Part shown: positions 5,373 to 43,198 of the stretch, piece after piece
How the letters are laid out: each line of letters begins with the position of its first letter
Position numbering within the stretch: position 1 is the first letter of the stretch
Made by a program: the position numbers and the translations under genes
Notes under the pieces: model-generated
Told to the model about the DNA's origin: nothing
What the model saw: the letters and a program-made list of their open reading frames with translations, nothing else
The model's database searches: none
DNA from: Bacteroidales bacterium
Lineage (GTDB): Bacteria > Bacteroidota > Bacteroidia > Bacteroidales > TTA-H9
Direction: 5' to 3'
NCBI GenBank assembly: GCA_030656615.1
Contig: JAUSOY010000045.1
Coordinates: forward strand, 1-50,622
DNA length: 50,622 nucleotides

Positions 5373-7100
5373 ATGAAATTATATCATTTTAACATAATTC
5401 GTAAGGGGCAAAAGGCCCTTCGCCTTGTTCTTACTTGTCTGGTTGTTTTGCCCGGTCTTAATGCTATCGCGCAAAAGCCCCAAGTTGAAGAGGTTACGAT
5501 TATTGGCATTTTTAATCCAACCATTTCTGATGCCAATAAAATTCTGAGAAATCCGGTTTTACAGGATACTACCATCCCTTTACCAGCAATGAATTATTCG
5601 ATCGTATCGCAGCCACTGGACGTTAGTTTCCCGGTGTATCGCATTGATGCTATGAAGACTGATTTGGATCAGGATAAGGAATTGTTAAAGAACTATATCA
5701 AAGGTGGTTTTGGTAATTTTACGACTCCTTATTTTGAATTCTTTGCCAATAAGCCACAATCTAAAAAAAGCGGTTTTGGTATGCATTATCGTCATATTTC
5801 TTCAAAGAATACTCCGGAGCATTACACAAAAGCCGACATGAGTTCCAATCAGGCCGAAATTTTCGGTAAACTCTTTAGCAGAAATAGCACACTGACTGGC
5901 ACTATCGGTTTCGATCGACTGATGGTTCACCGTTATGGGTTTATTACCGATAGCATTGCCGATTCACTCTTGCCATCCAGTGATCAACTTCGGCAGGTTT
6001 ATACCTTGGTTAATACCCGTCTGGGAATTGAAAGCATGGATTCGAAGCGTTCTGATCTGAATTATAATATATTTTTGGATGCTTATTTTCTTGGAGATAA
6101 GTTTGATACCCGTGAAACGGGCATCGGCTTAAATGGCAAACTCGAAACCAATGTGGATTTGCTGGGTTTTAAAAATTCTCAGACTCTTGGTATGAACTAT
6201 AAAGCCGATATGTGGAGTCAAAAAATGGATACGGCGGCCGGTATCACGAATTCACTGATTAGCCTGCAGCCATATTTTGGAACTTCTGTTGAAGAATATG
6301 AATTATGGTTGGGGCTGAATGCCAGCATTCTGACCGATACGGCCACTGAGTTCAGTGTTTTTCCAAAAATCAAGGGCGCATTGAATATTATACCCAATGT
6401 GCTTCGTCTGTGGGCTGGCATCGATGGTTATTACAGTGCTAACAGCATGCTTACAAATTACCGGACTAATCCTTATATAAGTAGTCAACAGCAGTTTTTG
6501 TTTTCAAAAACGGGTTTCGAGTTTTCCGGAGGCCTGTCATCGAGCCTGGGTCGTTTTTTGGATATGAATATCCGCGTACGAGGAGGAAATACCAACGATG
6601 CTGTTTTCTTTATTAACGATACCACCGAACGCTATCTGAATACTTTTGTGATACAGTCCGATGATGTTGATTATATTGAGGGGGGAATTGAGTTTTCCTT
6701 CAACCGGCGCGATGCATGGCGTGTGCTAATAGGAGCGACCTACACCACAATTTCTACCGATTCGATAGTTAAGCCCTGGCATACTCCGGAAATGGTTTTT
6801 TATGTGAATGGAATGGTGAAAATCACTCCTAAAATGACCTTAACGGCCAATTTAAATGCTTTTGGTAAAATGTTTGCCCGCAATTTTATCTGGAATTCGA
6901 ATTTAAACCGTTTCGACGAACATGCCCCGCTCGAGTTGAATTCATTCCTTGATGCCAGCGTCGGTCTACGATATCAGTTTAATAGTCATTTTTCTGCCTT
7001 CGCTAATTTTAATAATCTTGCCGGAAAGAAATATCAGCGGTGGAATCAATACCCGGTATACGGATTTAATATGTTGGCTGGTATATCTTATTCATTTTAG
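5373..7100 (+). CDS. Outer-membrane beta-barrel protein (TonB-receptor-like, no plug)
   Basis: A 575-residue exported protein with a signal peptide ending near LNAIAQ. A short conserved segment with EEVTIIG and NPTISDANK follows, then alternating hydrophobic/polar strands rich in aromatic residues. It ends FNMLAGISYSF, with the terminal Phe typical of outer-membrane barrels. It is too short for a full TonB-dependent receptor and I see no plug domain. It resembles barrels often annotated as TonB-dependent-receptor-like in Bacteroidota. The gene sits 20 bp behind the large TPR gene, with which it probably functions. Transport or envelope assembly are both possible. I cannot choose between them. 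Confidence 0.82.
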   Translation: MKLYHFNIIRKGQKALRLVLTCLVVLPGLNAIAQKPQVEEVTIIGIFNPTISDANKILRNPVLQDTTIPLPAMNYSIVSQPLDVSFPVYRIDAMKTDLDQDKELLKNYIKGGFGNFTTPYFEFFANKPQSKKSGFGMHYRHISSKNTPEHYTKADMSSNQAEIFGKLFSRNSTLTGTIGFDRLMVHRYGFITDSIADSLLPSSDQLRQVYTLVNTRLGIESMDSKRSDLNYNIFLDAYFLGDKFDTRETGIGLNGKLETNVDLLGFKNSQTLGMNYKADMWSQKMDTAAGITNSLISLQPYFGTSVEEYELWLGLNASILTDTATEFSVFPKIKGALNIIPNVLRLWAGIDGYYSANSMLTNYRTNPYISSQQQFLFSKTGFEFSGGLSSSLGRFLDMNIRVRGGNTNDAVFFINDTTERYLNTFVIQSDDVDYIEGGIEFSFNRRDAWRVLIGATYTTISTDSIVKPWHTPEMVFYVNGMVKITPKMTLTANLNAFGKMFARNFIWNSNLNRFDEHAPLELNSFLDASVGLRYQFNSHFSAFANFNNLAGKKYQRWNQYPVYGFNMLAGISYSF

Positions 7101-7118
7101 TTTATTACCCGGATGTTG

Positions 7119-7160
7119 AAAAAGGGCAATTTGTCACTGACCAGCAAATTGCCCTTTTTT
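7119..7160 (+). terminator. Rho-independent terminator after the TPR/barrel operon
   Basis: A perfect 13-bp stem (7121-7133 with 7145-7157, AAAGGGCAATTTG) has an 11-nt loop and is followed by a run of T. It lies 20 bp after the stop of the barrel gene and closes that operon before the binding-protein gene. Confidence 0.95.
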
Positions 7161-7183
7161 ATGCGTTATGTTATAAAATGGTT

Positions 7184-38452: not shown

Positions 38453-39340
38453 ATGAAAAAGAAAGTATCTCTTGTGTTATCCGGGGGCGGTGCCAGAGGT
38501 AGTGCTCATATTGGCGTAATTGAGGAATTGGAAAGGCAGGGATATTTAATTACATCCATTGCAGGAACTTCAATGGGGGCATTGGTTGGTGGCGTTTATG
38601 CGCTGGGTAAAATGCCGGAATTTAAAGAATGGATATGTTCACTCGACAAAATTAAGGTATTCAAGTTAATCGATTTTACTTTTAGTACTCAAGGCCTGGT
38701 CAAGGGTGATAAAGTGCTGAATGCAATGAAGGCGATTATTTCGGATACCAATATTGAAGATTTAAAAATTCCTTACGCCGCAATTGCCACCGATATACTG
38801 AACAAAAAAGAGGTGGTTTTTAGAGAAGGGAGCATTTATAAAGCAATCCGGGCATCCATTTCCATCCCGACCGTGTTTACACCACTTAAGGTCGGTGAAA
38901 CCTTGCTTGTAGATGGTGGTATTATTAATAATATACCTCTGAAACATGTAAAACGCAGTCCCGGTGATTTACTGATAGCTGTTAATGTTAATGCAGATAT
39001 TCCTGTATACCGACCGGATTTTACCCAAAAAGAAGAAACAGCCATTCAAAGCCTTTATAGAAAGAGACTGAAACGTTTTCATAATTATTTGCAAAAGGAT
39101 GCTGAAGAAAAGGAAGTCGATCATCTGAGTTATTTCAATCTGATTGACAAAACACTGAGTTTGATGATGTATCAGATATCTCAGTTGTCTATTGAACATT
39201 ATGCTCCTGATCTGTTGATTAAAGTATCACGTGATTCGTGCAGTACATTCGATTTTTTTAAGGCAGAAGAGTTGGTTGAAATCGGTCGCCATGCAGCTGC
39301 AAAGAGTCTGGCGGAAATGAATCTTAAGATAAATGATTAG
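38453..39340 (+). CDS. Patatin-like phospholipase family protein
   Basis: The start at 38453 (MKKKVSLVLSGGG) gives 295 residues and the standard patatin N-terminus; the longer frame opens without an ATG. The oxyanion hole is SGGGARGSAHIG, the nucleophile Ser is in AGTSMGALVGG, and the catalytic Asp is in LLVDGGIINNIP. These complete the Ser-Asp dyad of bacterial RssA/YjjU-like patatins. There is no signal peptide, so it probably acts in the cytoplasm on lipids or acyl esters. The C-terminal 90 residues are charged and not recognised. The last 8 kb before it are mostly envelope or lipid genes. Confidence 0.92.
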   Translation: MKKKVSLVLSGGGARGSAHIGVIEELERQGYLITSIAGTSMGALVGGVYALGKMPEFKEWICSLDKIKVFKLIDFTFSTQGLVKGDKVLNAMKAIISDTNIEDLKIPYAAIATDILNKKEVVFREGSIYKAIRASISIPTVFTPLKVGETLLVDGGIINNIPLKHVKRSPGDLLIAVNVNADIPVYRPDFTQKEETAIQSLYRKRLKRFHNYLQKDAEEKEVDHLSYFNLIDKTLSLMMYQISQLSIEHYAPDLLIKVSRDSCSTFDFFKAEELVEIGRHAAAKSLAEMNLKIND

Positions 39341-39490
39341 GTTGTTTTTGGTTTTCATGTTTGATTGGTCATGGGCTGTTGTCTCCGATTAGTATCAACG
39401 AATTATGGCATCTGAAATTAAATTCAGAGGTGTGTTAATACAATTATCCCATGTATGTTTCGTTTTATAGTAATCAAAATCTAAAACAAC

Positions 39491-40158
39491 ATGAAAAACA
39501 GCCTTTATTTTTTGTTTCTTGCCTTAACGAGTCTCATGTTTTTTTCCTGCGGAAAGGATAATATTGACCCGTATCCCGATAAATATGAAATCAGATGTAC
39601 TGATTACACTCAGTTAAAAGTTGGAAATTATTGGATTTACCAACGTTATACCATTGATAGCATGGGCTTTGCCACGCCGCTCAATAAATACGACAGTTGC
39701 TATGTAGCAAAAGACACAAGCATCAACGATAAGGTCTACTTCAAAGTGTACCGGCCATCACTGATGCCACTCATTAAATACGTTTTGTTGAGAGATTCAT
39801 TGCATTATCTGGTAGATCACCGGGGCATGATTCATTTTTCGCATCTTGACTTTACAAGCATTTTTTATGAACGATACATTGTGACGTTCGATACTATGGG
39901 CTTTATGTATACCCGTATGGACGATAAAAAATACCGGTGAATACCCCTGCCGGAGTTTTTAATACGCTGAACGTCAAAACGACCTATGAATTCAGACCAC
40001 CCTACACATTTTCTGGAAATCCAAGGTATCTTAATTGTCGTTATGCAATCAATGTGGGCATTGTTTCAGAAAGTTTGGGATTTTATATGTCTCAATCTTC
40101 TAGTACAGAGCGACGCTTGGTGAGATATCATATTGAACTATTGGTAGGTACGAAATAA
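39491..40158 (+). pseudogene. Exported lipoprotein gene broken by a -1 nt frameshift
   Basis: The first part (39491-39940) encodes a lipoprotein signal (NSLYFLFLALTSLMFFSC, Cys in the lipobox) and about 130 residues, with YTQLKVGNYWIYQRY as the clearest segment. The frame ends at a TGA right after GATAAAAAATACCGG. Adding one A to the A6 tract joins it without a gap to the frame 39937-40158 (VNTPAGVFNTLNVKTTYEF onward), giving one protein of about 222 residues ending LLVGTK. The junction sequence then reads DDKKIPVNTPAGVF. This is either a true inactivating deletion, a sequencing error in the homopolymer, or slippage. The family is not recognised beyond a Bacteroidota lipoprotein. Confidence 0.8.
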
Positions 40159-40274
40159 ATAGCTTAGCAGACAATCTGTCGCAGACTTTCCTTTTTTTCT
40201 TAACTTGCTTCATTAATTTTCCATCGAAATTGTCAAATATTGCTTTTCAATGGATTAAAGCATATGAATTGCCC

Positions 40275-40448
40275 ATGAAAAACATTCCTCTTTTATCCAT
40301 TTTGGCTATAACGATTATGGCCATATCAATAAGTCTACTCGACTTTAATGATTTGAGCTGGGCTCAAAATTCAAAGAGCTATATCGGATTGGTTATTTTT
40401 ATTGTTTTACTGATTGTTACCATTCAATTGAAACGGAAGAAGCAATAA
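40275..40448 (+). CDS. Small two-helix membrane protein
   Basis: The ATG at 40275 gives 57 residues: MKNIPLLSILAITIMAISISLL, a short loop with DLSWAQNSKSY, then a second helix (IGLVIFIVLLIVTI) and a basic tail QLKRKKQ. The pattern of a signal-like helix, an N-D-L-S-W-x-x-N loop and a second helix is common among small uncharacterised Bacteroidota proteins. The basic end should face the cytoplasm. It stands alone on the plus strand. No function can be assigned. Confidence 0.6.
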   Translation: MKNIPLLSILAITIMAISISLLDFNDLSWAQNSKSYIGLVIFIVLLIVTIQLKRKKQ

Positions 40449-40697
40449 TAATTATTTTGTTTATTGGCTTTTTAAATAGTATTGATTTTCACTATTTCAC
40501 GGTGGATGTTTTTTGGATTGTTATGCCAGGGTTGAGTTTTTCAGGAAACCGATCGATTAGAGATTGTTTTTAAGGTCATTTAGTAATTCGCAATTCTCCT
40601 TTTTAAATATCTGTCCGGAAATGCTGAAGGTATTGAAAGGAAAATTCTAAGAATTAGGATGTTGGTTTATTTCTGCAATATTTTTTAAATCAGTGTG

Positions 40698-40992
40698 ATG
40701 CGTATTTTAGTTTTATTGATTTTTATTAATATTCACTATCTGGTAATAGCTCAAACCGATGCTCCAGTACCCTTGATGCCAATTCCTTCAGCATCTCAAA
40801 TGGAATGGCCAACGGGTGAAAACCTTTACAGTAGATGCTTGGGTCAATGGTCATTGGCAAAATATTTCGATCGGTATAACCATTGGCTATAAAAGGATTT
40901 TGAAATTGAATGGTGTATAGACCGATAAAATACGGATTGCGATTTTGGATTCTAAAGCCTGTCAATTGATTTCGACGGTGGGAATATATTAA
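40698..40992 (+). pseudogene. GH29 alpha-L-fucosidase remnant with a large internal deletion
   Basis: From ATG 40698 a signal peptide (MRILVLLIFINIHYLVIAQ) leads into TDAPVPLMPIPSASQMEW, the N-terminal start of GH29 fucosidases, up to 40808. From 40810, in the +1 frame, the sequence is the C-terminal domain of the same family: QRVKTFTVDAWVNGHW, then ISIGITIGYKRILKLNGV. A TAG at 40918 follows, then TDKIRIAILDSKACQLISTV to the TAA at 40990-40992. The whole catalytic domain (roughly 400 residues) is missing. Deletion, frameshift and an internal stop make this a clear pseudogene. The family assignment is from recall of conserved segments. Confidence 0.8.
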
Positions 40993-41026
40993 CGTAACAA
41001 TGATTAATCCCGGGAAGAATTGTTTC

Positions 41027-41506
41027 ATGAAAAACCTGAAGGGTAGCTTGTTTTTAATTGCATTTGTGTTACTGCATTATATTTCATGGTCCCAGGAGTC
41101 TTTGCTCTATAAAAATCCAAACATTGCTGTTGATTTACGGGTTAAGGATTTGATTTCACGAATGAGTCCTGAGGAAAAATTCTGGCAATTGTTCATGATT
41201 CCAGGAAACCTGGAAATTAAAAAGGAGGAGTTTAAAAACGGCATATTTGGTCTTCAGGTAAATGCAATAGGAAATAAGAATGCTGTAACTCAGCTGTTGA
41301 AATACGATGCCAGTCTCCCGGCTCACGATACAGCACGCACAATAAATTCAAGACCTTTTAATTGCGTCTGTGATGTTTCTCCTATTAAGCATTGCAATCT
41401 GATGGTTAAAATCGTTTTTATCATCGTATTAACCATTTGGTTTAATACTATACATCAGATTGAGTTTGGTTCAGGGGAATTCCGTAGTTTTATCTCACCA
41501 AAATAA
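41027..41506 (+). pseudogene. GH3 beta-glucosidase, N-terminal fragment
   Basis: From ATG 41027 the first 108 codons (to 41350) encode a signal peptide (LFLIAFVLLHYISWSQ) and the N-terminal part of a GH3 glycosidase. The conserved segments are DLRVKDLISRMSPEEKFWQL, then FGLQVNAIGNKN and AHDTARTINS. After TINS, where intact relatives continue into the active-site barrel, the frame runs on for 51 codons of unrelated hydrophobic sequence to a TAA at 41506. The catalytic Asp/Glu and more than 80% of the usual length are absent. It lies 34 bp downstream of the GH29 remnant, suggesting a former operon. Confidence 0.78.
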
Positions 41507-41536
41507 ATTTTACAAAACAAAAAACTTTTACTAGAA

Positions 41537-42937
41537 ATGAAAAAGATTTTCGAACGAATATTGATTGTGGCTCTCATATCTGTGCTTGTGGGTGTATTGG
41601 GCTGTAAACCAACTACAAAGCAAACGGAAAAGGCATCTTTTAAAGCCATTGAATTATTTCCTGAGCCAATACGACCTGAAGGGCAAAGTGATGTAATCGA
41701 GTTAAAATCTGAACCCATTGATACGGTTCGCATTGCTATTATCGGATTGGGAATGCGTGGATCACAGGCAGTTTACCGTTATTCGTTCATTGAGGGTGTA
41801 AAAATTGTAGCCATCTGCGATGTAGTATCAAAAAATGTGGAAAGTGCTCAAAAATTTATGCAGGAAAGTGGGCTTCCTGATGCAGATGCATACACCGATT
41901 CAACCGATTGGAAGAAAATTTGCGAAAGAGACGATATCGATTTAATTTATGTATGTACTCATTGGGATTTACATACGCCCATTGCGGTATATGCTATGGA
42001 ACACGGCAAACATGTTGCACTGGAAGTTCCTGCAGCTATCACGATTGAAGAGTGCTGGCAATTGGTCAATACCTCTGAAAAAACACGAAAACACTGTATG
42101 CAATTGGAAAATTGCAACTATGATTTTTTCGAAATGGCTACTCTTAACATGGCTCAACATGGACTTTTTGGTGAAATCGTTCATTGCGAGGGCGCCTATA
42201 TTCATGATTTACGCTGGCTCAATTTCGATGAAAAATCCGGATACTGGAATATGTGGCGTTTAAAGCATAACGAAAAACGCAACGGAAACTTATATCCAAC
42301 ACATGGCCTGGGACCGATTTGTCACATTATGAATATTCATCGGGGCGATAAAATGGATTACCTCGTGTCTGTTTCGAGCAATCAATTCGGAATGACAGAA
42401 TATGCCAAAGAAAAGTTCGGCTCGGAATCCGATTATGCAAAAATGGAATACAAACATGGTGATATGAATACGACGCTCGTAAAAACGCAAAAGGGAAAAA
42501 CGATTATGATTCAGCATAATGTAACCAATCCCAGACCGTATAGCCGGATTCATCTCATTAGTGGTACTAAAGGTTTTGCTCAAAAATGGCCTCAACAAGG
42601 TATCGCTCTTGAACCCAATGGTCATTCTTTTTTATCAAAAACTCAATTGGATTCTCTTTTAAAGGTTTACGAACATCCGATTTCGAAGGAAGTTGGAGAA
42701 AAGGCGAAGAAAGTAGGCGGCCATGGAGGAATGGATTTCGTAATGGATTACCGCTTGATTTATTGCCTTAGAAATGGTTTACCCCTCGATCAGGATGTGT
42801 ACGATGCCGCTGAATGGTCAGCCATTATTGAACTCTCGGAACGATCAGTCGAAAACCAGGGAATGCCGGTAAAGATCCCTGATTTTACCCGTGGTGCTTG
42901 GGAAAAGCTTAAAACGGTGACTTATTATACTAAATAG
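41537..42937 (+). CDS. Gfo/Idh/MocA oxidoreductase-like glycosidase (GH109-type) lipoprotein
   Basis: 466 residues with a lipoprotein signal (ILIVALISVLVGVLGC). An NAD-binding Rossmann domain starts at about residue 65 (RIAIIGLGMRGSQA), followed by VAICDVV, CTHWDLHTPIAVYAMEHGKHVALEVPAA and ENCNYDFFE. The C-terminal part has NLYPTHGLGPICHIMNIHRGD and GGHGGMDFVMDYRL, segments seen in GH109 alpha-N-acetylgalactosaminidases, which use NAD without net redox change. The export signal fits glycan breakdown. It is intact, unlike the GH29 and GH3 remnants just upstream. A non-hydrolytic sugar oxidoreductase remains possible. Confidence 0.88.
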   Translation: MKKIFERILIVALISVLVGVLGCKPTTKQTEKASFKAIELFPEPIRPEGQSDVIELKSEPIDTVRIAIIGLGMRGSQAVYRYSFIEGVKIVAICDVVSKNVESAQKFMQESGLPDADAYTDSTDWKKICERDDIDLIYVCTHWDLHTPIAVYAMEHGKHVALEVPAAITIEECWQLVNTSEKTRKHCMQLENCNYDFFEMATLNMAQHGLFGEIVHCEGAYIHDLRWLNFDEKSGYWNMWRLKHNEKRNGNLYPTHGLGPICHIMNIHRGDKMDYLVSVSSNQFGMTEYAKEKFGSESDYAKMEYKHGDMNTTLVKTQKGKTIMIQHNVTNPRPYSRIHLISGTKGFAQKWPQQGIALEPNGHSFLSKTQLDSLLKVYEHPISKEVGEKAKKVGGHGGMDFVMDYRLIYCLRNGLPLDQDVYDAAEWSAIIELSERSVENQGMPVKIPDFTRGAWEKLKTVTYYTK

Positions 42938-42997
42938 AGATTTTCTAAAGCTTACTTTAAAGCAAAATCAAAACTGAAAACACTCAGGAAGAGGATT

Positions 42998-43198
42998 TTA
43001 ATCTCCATCTTCGAGCTGGAAGATTTCATTTACTTCTTTGCCAAAGTATTGTGAGAGCTTGAGGGCTAAAATAGTAGAAGGTACGTACTTCCCGAGCTCA
43101 ATAGAGTTAATCGCCTGACGCGTAACCCCAATTTGCTTTGATAACTCCTCTTGTGTGATATTTTTTATGGCCCGCTCTACCTTTATATTATTCTTCAT
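42998..43198 (-). CDS. XRE/Cro-CI family transcriptional regulator
   Basis: A 66-residue single-domain HTH protein. The helix-turn-helix is EELSKQIGVTRQAINSIELGKYVPS (residues about 17-41), and the C-terminus is YFGKEVNEIFQLEDGD. This subtype (short, with NEIFQLE-like ends) usually pairs with a small membrane protein of the DUF2178/DUF2975 kind. Here it overlaps the 3' end of the upstream membrane-protein gene by 11 bp, so the two are translationally coupled. It probably binds the direct repeats at their shared promoter. Confidence 0.93.
   Translation of the reverse strand: MKNNIKVERAIKNITQEELSKQIGVTRQAINSIELGKYVPSTILALKLSQYFGKEVNEIFQLEDGD

Follow-up and report, generated by a model that had tools for sequence, protein, structure and literature searches.

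The window analyzed here, a 50,622-nucleotide stretch of a Bacteroidales genome (contig JAUSOY010000045.1 of assembly GCA_030656615.1), carries at positions 40698 to 40992 of its plus strand the two ends of a GH29 alpha-L-fucosidase gene, the start of which, up to the conserved block PIPSASQMEW, directly abuts the last 61 residues of the gene (GQRVK...GIY), one frame over. The head, i.e., the retained 5' end (40698 to 40808, plus strand), was located by tblastn with intact GH29 proteins and bears a motif unique in the window; its first 37 codons translate as MRILVLLIFINIHYLVIAQTDAPVPLMPIPSASQMEW, comprising an N-terminal hydrophobic stretch, signal-peptide-like by eye, and then the first conserved block. 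The tail, i.e., the retained 3' end of the same gene (40807 to 40992, plus strand), consists of 61 codons, including an internal TAG, plus a stop codon, and reads in the other frame as GQRVKTFTVDAWVNGHWQNISIGITIGYKRILKLNGV*TDKIRIAILDSKACQLISTVGIY*. From the sequence and the homologue codons at both sites, the junction was assigned to the trinucleotide GGC at 40807 to 40809 (plus strand), which in the head reading supplies the end of the Trp codon and the first base of the next one and in the tail reading spells a conserved Gly codon. The frames of the head and tail thus differ, and the tail is further interrupted by the in-frame TAG (40918 to 40920, plus strand), so that no single open frame leads from the leader to the C terminus. 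Across the junction run an open reading frame (ORF) of 65 codons (40695 to 40892), which starts at the intact leader and continues into the wrong-frame tail, and an antisense ORF of 100 codons (40726 to 41028, minus strand), which matched no Pfam family and is probably due to chance.

We compared positions 39001 to 43000 of the window by tblastn with eight intact GH29 proteins from related genomes. The tail was matched by all eight queries, with E values of 7.8e-18 to 8.9e-13, and the head by four of them (E values of 9e-5, 6e-4, 0.003, and 0.12), while the other four gave no match to the head in this region. The two pieces are homologous to the same intact GH29 proteins and lie next to each other, in the correct order and on one strand. 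In a six-frame search of the window, a pattern describing the head motif had a single hit, at the remnant, and it had none in 200 codon-shuffled windows. Pfam returned no family for the 65-codon ORF or for the tail up to the TAG, and NCBIfam returned none for the whole tail (E ≤ 1 in both cases), which is unsurprising given how short these pieces are for libraries of this kind. The original prediction, that the middle of a GH29 gene is lost, that its two ends are joined here one frame apart, and that a TAG interrupts the tail, was therefore borne out.

Comparison with intact homologues, which had been proposed as the way to map the ends of the deletion, placed one end at the Trp that closes PIPSASQMEW and the other at the Gly that opens GQRV. 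The distance between these two residues is 375 to 387 residues (median, 382) in 29 intact homologues, a set from which homologues with blocks outside the search pattern were left out. Since the Trp and Gly codons of the remnant overlap by two bases, this spacing corresponds to a loss of 1124 to 1160 bp, most likely about 1145 bp; the number of bases lost is not divisible by three, which puts the tail out of frame. The middle is thus gone, as predicted, with a size of about 382 rather than 400 residues, and the tail, correctly recognized by its QRVK block, has also kept the conserved Gly that precedes it. In the intact homologue from genome G046, to which both ends of the remnant align, the Trp is residue 75, the Pfam domain Alpha_L_fucos (PF01120) spans residues 75 to 380, and a galactose-binding-like domain spans residues 398 to 504; the deletion removed the equivalent of residues 76 to 456. 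The nearest solved relatives of this homologue include 8ayr, 5k9h, and 3eyp, as well as the alpha-1,3/4-fucosidases 3ues and 3mo4, and it is itself a relative of the GH29 fucosidases of the alpha-1,3/4 type (e.g., PDB 8ayr, 3eyp, and 3ues), which we take to be subfamily B. Unlike those enzymes, the remnant is devoid of the catalytic domain, PF01120 being absent and the ORFs of the remnant giving no Pfam match, and since that domain is gone, no fucosidase of this type can be made from it.

The sequence at the border, TGGCCAACGG (TGG C CAA CGG; positions 40806 to 40815), does not agree with the CAA microhomology suggested originally, as a join at CAA would have produced TGGCAACGG (TGG CAA CGG), in frame and with no extra base, whereas the window has an additional C and a frameshift. 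The residue following the Trp is H or Q in all eight aligned intact proteins, and the head side of the parent therefore probably read TGGCA, a sequence seen in 30 of 46 homologue rows, although this count is not independent, as only rows with H or Q fitted the pattern by which they were picked. At the tail end the parent sequence was GGN-CAR. Of the 46 rows, 40 have a site that is readable and lies in a long frame, and GGC encodes the Gly in 6 of these; in the window itself, GGC accounts for 186 of the 832 Gly codons in 19 long ORFs. The homologues thus allow GGC at either site of a parent sequence that is now gone, and a GGC overlap, which we infer on these grounds, would account for both the extra C and the frameshift. 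We prefer it to a blunt join since the tail frame has retained a codon for the conserved Gly; had the parent carried a Gly codon other than GGC, there would have been no overlap at all and the join would have been blunt. A report on two strains of the archaeon Haloquadratum walsbyi (PMC3119063) describes many deletions between them at short direct repeats of 4 to 20 bp. The remnant would be like these in its origin at short direct repeats, but the archaeal repeats described there are at least 4 bp long and were observed by strain comparison, whereas the 3-bp overlap proposed here was deduced.

The genes on both sides of the remnant, on whose breakage the original prediction was silent, turned out to be damaged as well. 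Upstream lies a frameshifted gene, lipoprotein-like by eye (39491 to 40158, plus strand), broken near position 39930, and one continuous frame spans both of its halves in each of two related genomes (215 codons in G022 and 245 in G058). This gene was matched in 4 of 60 genomes, that of the window included; Pfam gave no family for either half, and NCBIfam gave none for the first half. The frameshift is located beside a run of A at about 39930. Downstream, positions 41000 to 41350 (plus strand) hold a stump of a GH3 glycosidase gene, recognized by homologous GH3 starts and corresponding to about the first 117 of about 890 residues, the best matches being 49 to 52% identical to the start of GH3 proteins of roughly 890 to 900 residues. 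It was matched in 81 of 393 genomes of the order, that of the window included, with the best other match showing 51% identity in an 893-codon frame; of one GH3 relative of 898 residues, residues 14 to 114 are present at the stump. A search of the assembly for the rest of this GH3 gene failed to find it and yielded only paralogues, on contigs C46 (39 to 40%) and C77 (26%). A search for further GH3 pieces in 41200 to 41700 (a target of 501 bases), in which five of eight loci provided a GH3 protein under the pattern used, gave weak matches only (E values of 0.002 to 0.39); the match at 0.002 overlaps the GH3 head, and the next, at 0.006, covers 21 residues. The frame of the stump (41000 to 41506) runs on for about 50 codons of unrelated sequence to position 41506. 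A repeated element at 41330 to 41540 was considered and rejected, as no second copy occurs in the genome and the best other match is one of 20 bases with an E value of 0.1. Immediately downstream, and outside the remnant, an intact GH109-type gene follows (41537 to 42937, plus strand; Pfam Glyco_hydro_109_C, 3e-55), for which 80 of 180 relatives were kept (49 to 78% identity), those with names being mostly Bacteroidales metagenome assemblies, which points to a host of that order. The G+C content of positions 39341 to 41536 is 0.350, versus 0.397 for the window.

We are confident that the remnant is a GH29 pseudogene that arose by one internal deletion and lies in a patch with broken genes on either side. 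Genes are well known to decay in this way, and the remnant is an ordinary instance. The parent would have been an intact GH29 fucosidase gene, about 1.5 kb long and belonging to those that carry a galactose-binding-like domain at the C-terminal end. A single deletion of about 1145 bp would have fused its first block, at the Trp codon, with its last block, at the conserved Gly-Gln-Arg, most likely through replication slippage or end joining at the short GGC matches. Since the genes flanking the remnant are broken too, it is probable that a glycan-degrading cluster is being lost while the adjoining GH109-type gene is kept, the loss as a unit and the order of events being our reconstruction. The state of the tail speaks in part for and in part against a pseudogene. 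Among nine columns that are conserved in 95% or more of the 42 sequences compared (a set that includes one remnant, L194), the tail departs at one, T to I in TTIGYKR, which speaks for a pseudogene, and 31 of the 42 sequences depart at none; among 16 columns conserved in at least 90%, it departs at two, and 12 of the 42 also depart at two or more. Judged from these columns, the tail is, apart from the TAG, not strongly decayed, which, like the failure of four of the eight queries to find the head, counts against a pseudogene, and at looser cut-offs it is not unusual. Such a level of decay would be consistent with a fairly recent loss, although it gives no date.

The foremost alternative is an assembly error, i.e., the organism has an intact gene, the two ends of which were joined by the assembler, and the genome is indeed a draft of 90 contigs. 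Yet a search of the rest of the assembly at an E value of ≤1 did not recover the missing middle, the sole other match being to part of a distant intact GH29 paralogue on contig C33 (a 498-codon frame), the only other GH29 gene found there, so that the assembly contains no intact copy of the gene in question. Moreover, the TAG stands in the tail, apart from the junction, and the breaks in the two flanking genes are of other kinds. Three matching bases are also far too few for an overlap join, an overlap of that length being too short for an assembler to bridge two places. Taken together, the independent damage on both sides, the absent middle, and the three-base overlap make a true deletion much likelier than a misassembly, which we regard as unlikely.

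We then determined how often such remnants of GH29 genes occur. With the tail as the query, matches were found in 139 of 393 genomes of the order, and among the 150 tail matches listed, 146 belonged to frames 432 codons or longer and only four to frames under 200 codons, namely, those in the window, at G055:C16, at G172:C12, and at G292:C47, the last at a contig end. A class-wide survey with a 171-residue query gave matches in 50 of 395 genomes, and among the 75 matches listed, only the one in the window lay in a frame under 450 codons. Remnants of this sort are thus rare, though not unique. The one at G055:C16 (L046/L203), from another family of the same order, resembles that of the window in that the middle is lost and a GH29 head is followed, out of frame, by the final 67 residues (QEYIK...), but its head exceeds 200 residues and has a stop inside, and it represents a separate event in a different gene. 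Its break is about 20 bases from the boundary in the window. The remnant at G172:C12 (L204; about 6243 to 7178) is a GH29 C-terminal piece, interrupted by stops in its C-terminal part, and no front part was found for it; its similarity to one relative (L081) extends 28 residues upstream of the Gly. A recurrent breakpoint was considered and rejected, since beyond the window only these two short-frame tails lie off contig ends among the 150 matches listed, which is too few to support clustering. A search of the literature on GH29 pseudogenes, short-repeat deletions, and bacterial pseudogenes gave no title about the gene of the remnant among the matches listed.

It is very improbable that either the short ORF has been kept as a secreted peptide reusing the fucosidase leader or deletions in this gene family tend to end at the GQRV block near the 3' end. 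Taken by itself, the idea that the 65-codon ORF encodes a new small secreted peptide, for which the intact leader and the length of the open frame would speak, has an even slimmer chance of being right, as past the junction the ORF contains only the fucosidase tail in the wrong frame and has no Pfam family, and no other head-tail join at that place occurred among the matches listed for the 393 genomes of the order and the 395 of the class, the three other short-frame cases having been inspected. Least credible of all is a chance join of a head and a tail from two different genes, since, short as the head is and weak as its matches are (E value of 9e-5 at best), it matches the same intact proteins as the tail, the two lie in the correct order on the same strand with nothing between them, and the only other GH29 gene found in the genome is the distant intact paralogue.

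As a pseudogene, the remnant records that this lineage has lost one fucose-releasing enzyme, and it means little beyond bookkeeping. It is, however, a trap for annotation, as either the 65-codon ORF or the 100-codon antisense ORF could be called a new small gene, and with both of its ends cleanly retained, it makes a usable example of the loss of an accessory glycosidase gene. We also examined the conservation of the gene order at 80 of the 180 GH109 loci, for which the fetched stretches were of unequal length. At an E value of ≤1e-3, none of the fetched stretches contained both the GH29 tail and the GH3 head; the former was present at two loci (L078 and L081), and the latter, on the other strand, was present at one (L094). 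In another genome (G202), a GH29 gene and a GH3 gene, on opposite strands, are separated by about 1.5 kb that includes a further gene, and the pairing of GH29 with GH3 therefore exists elsewhere, in a different order.
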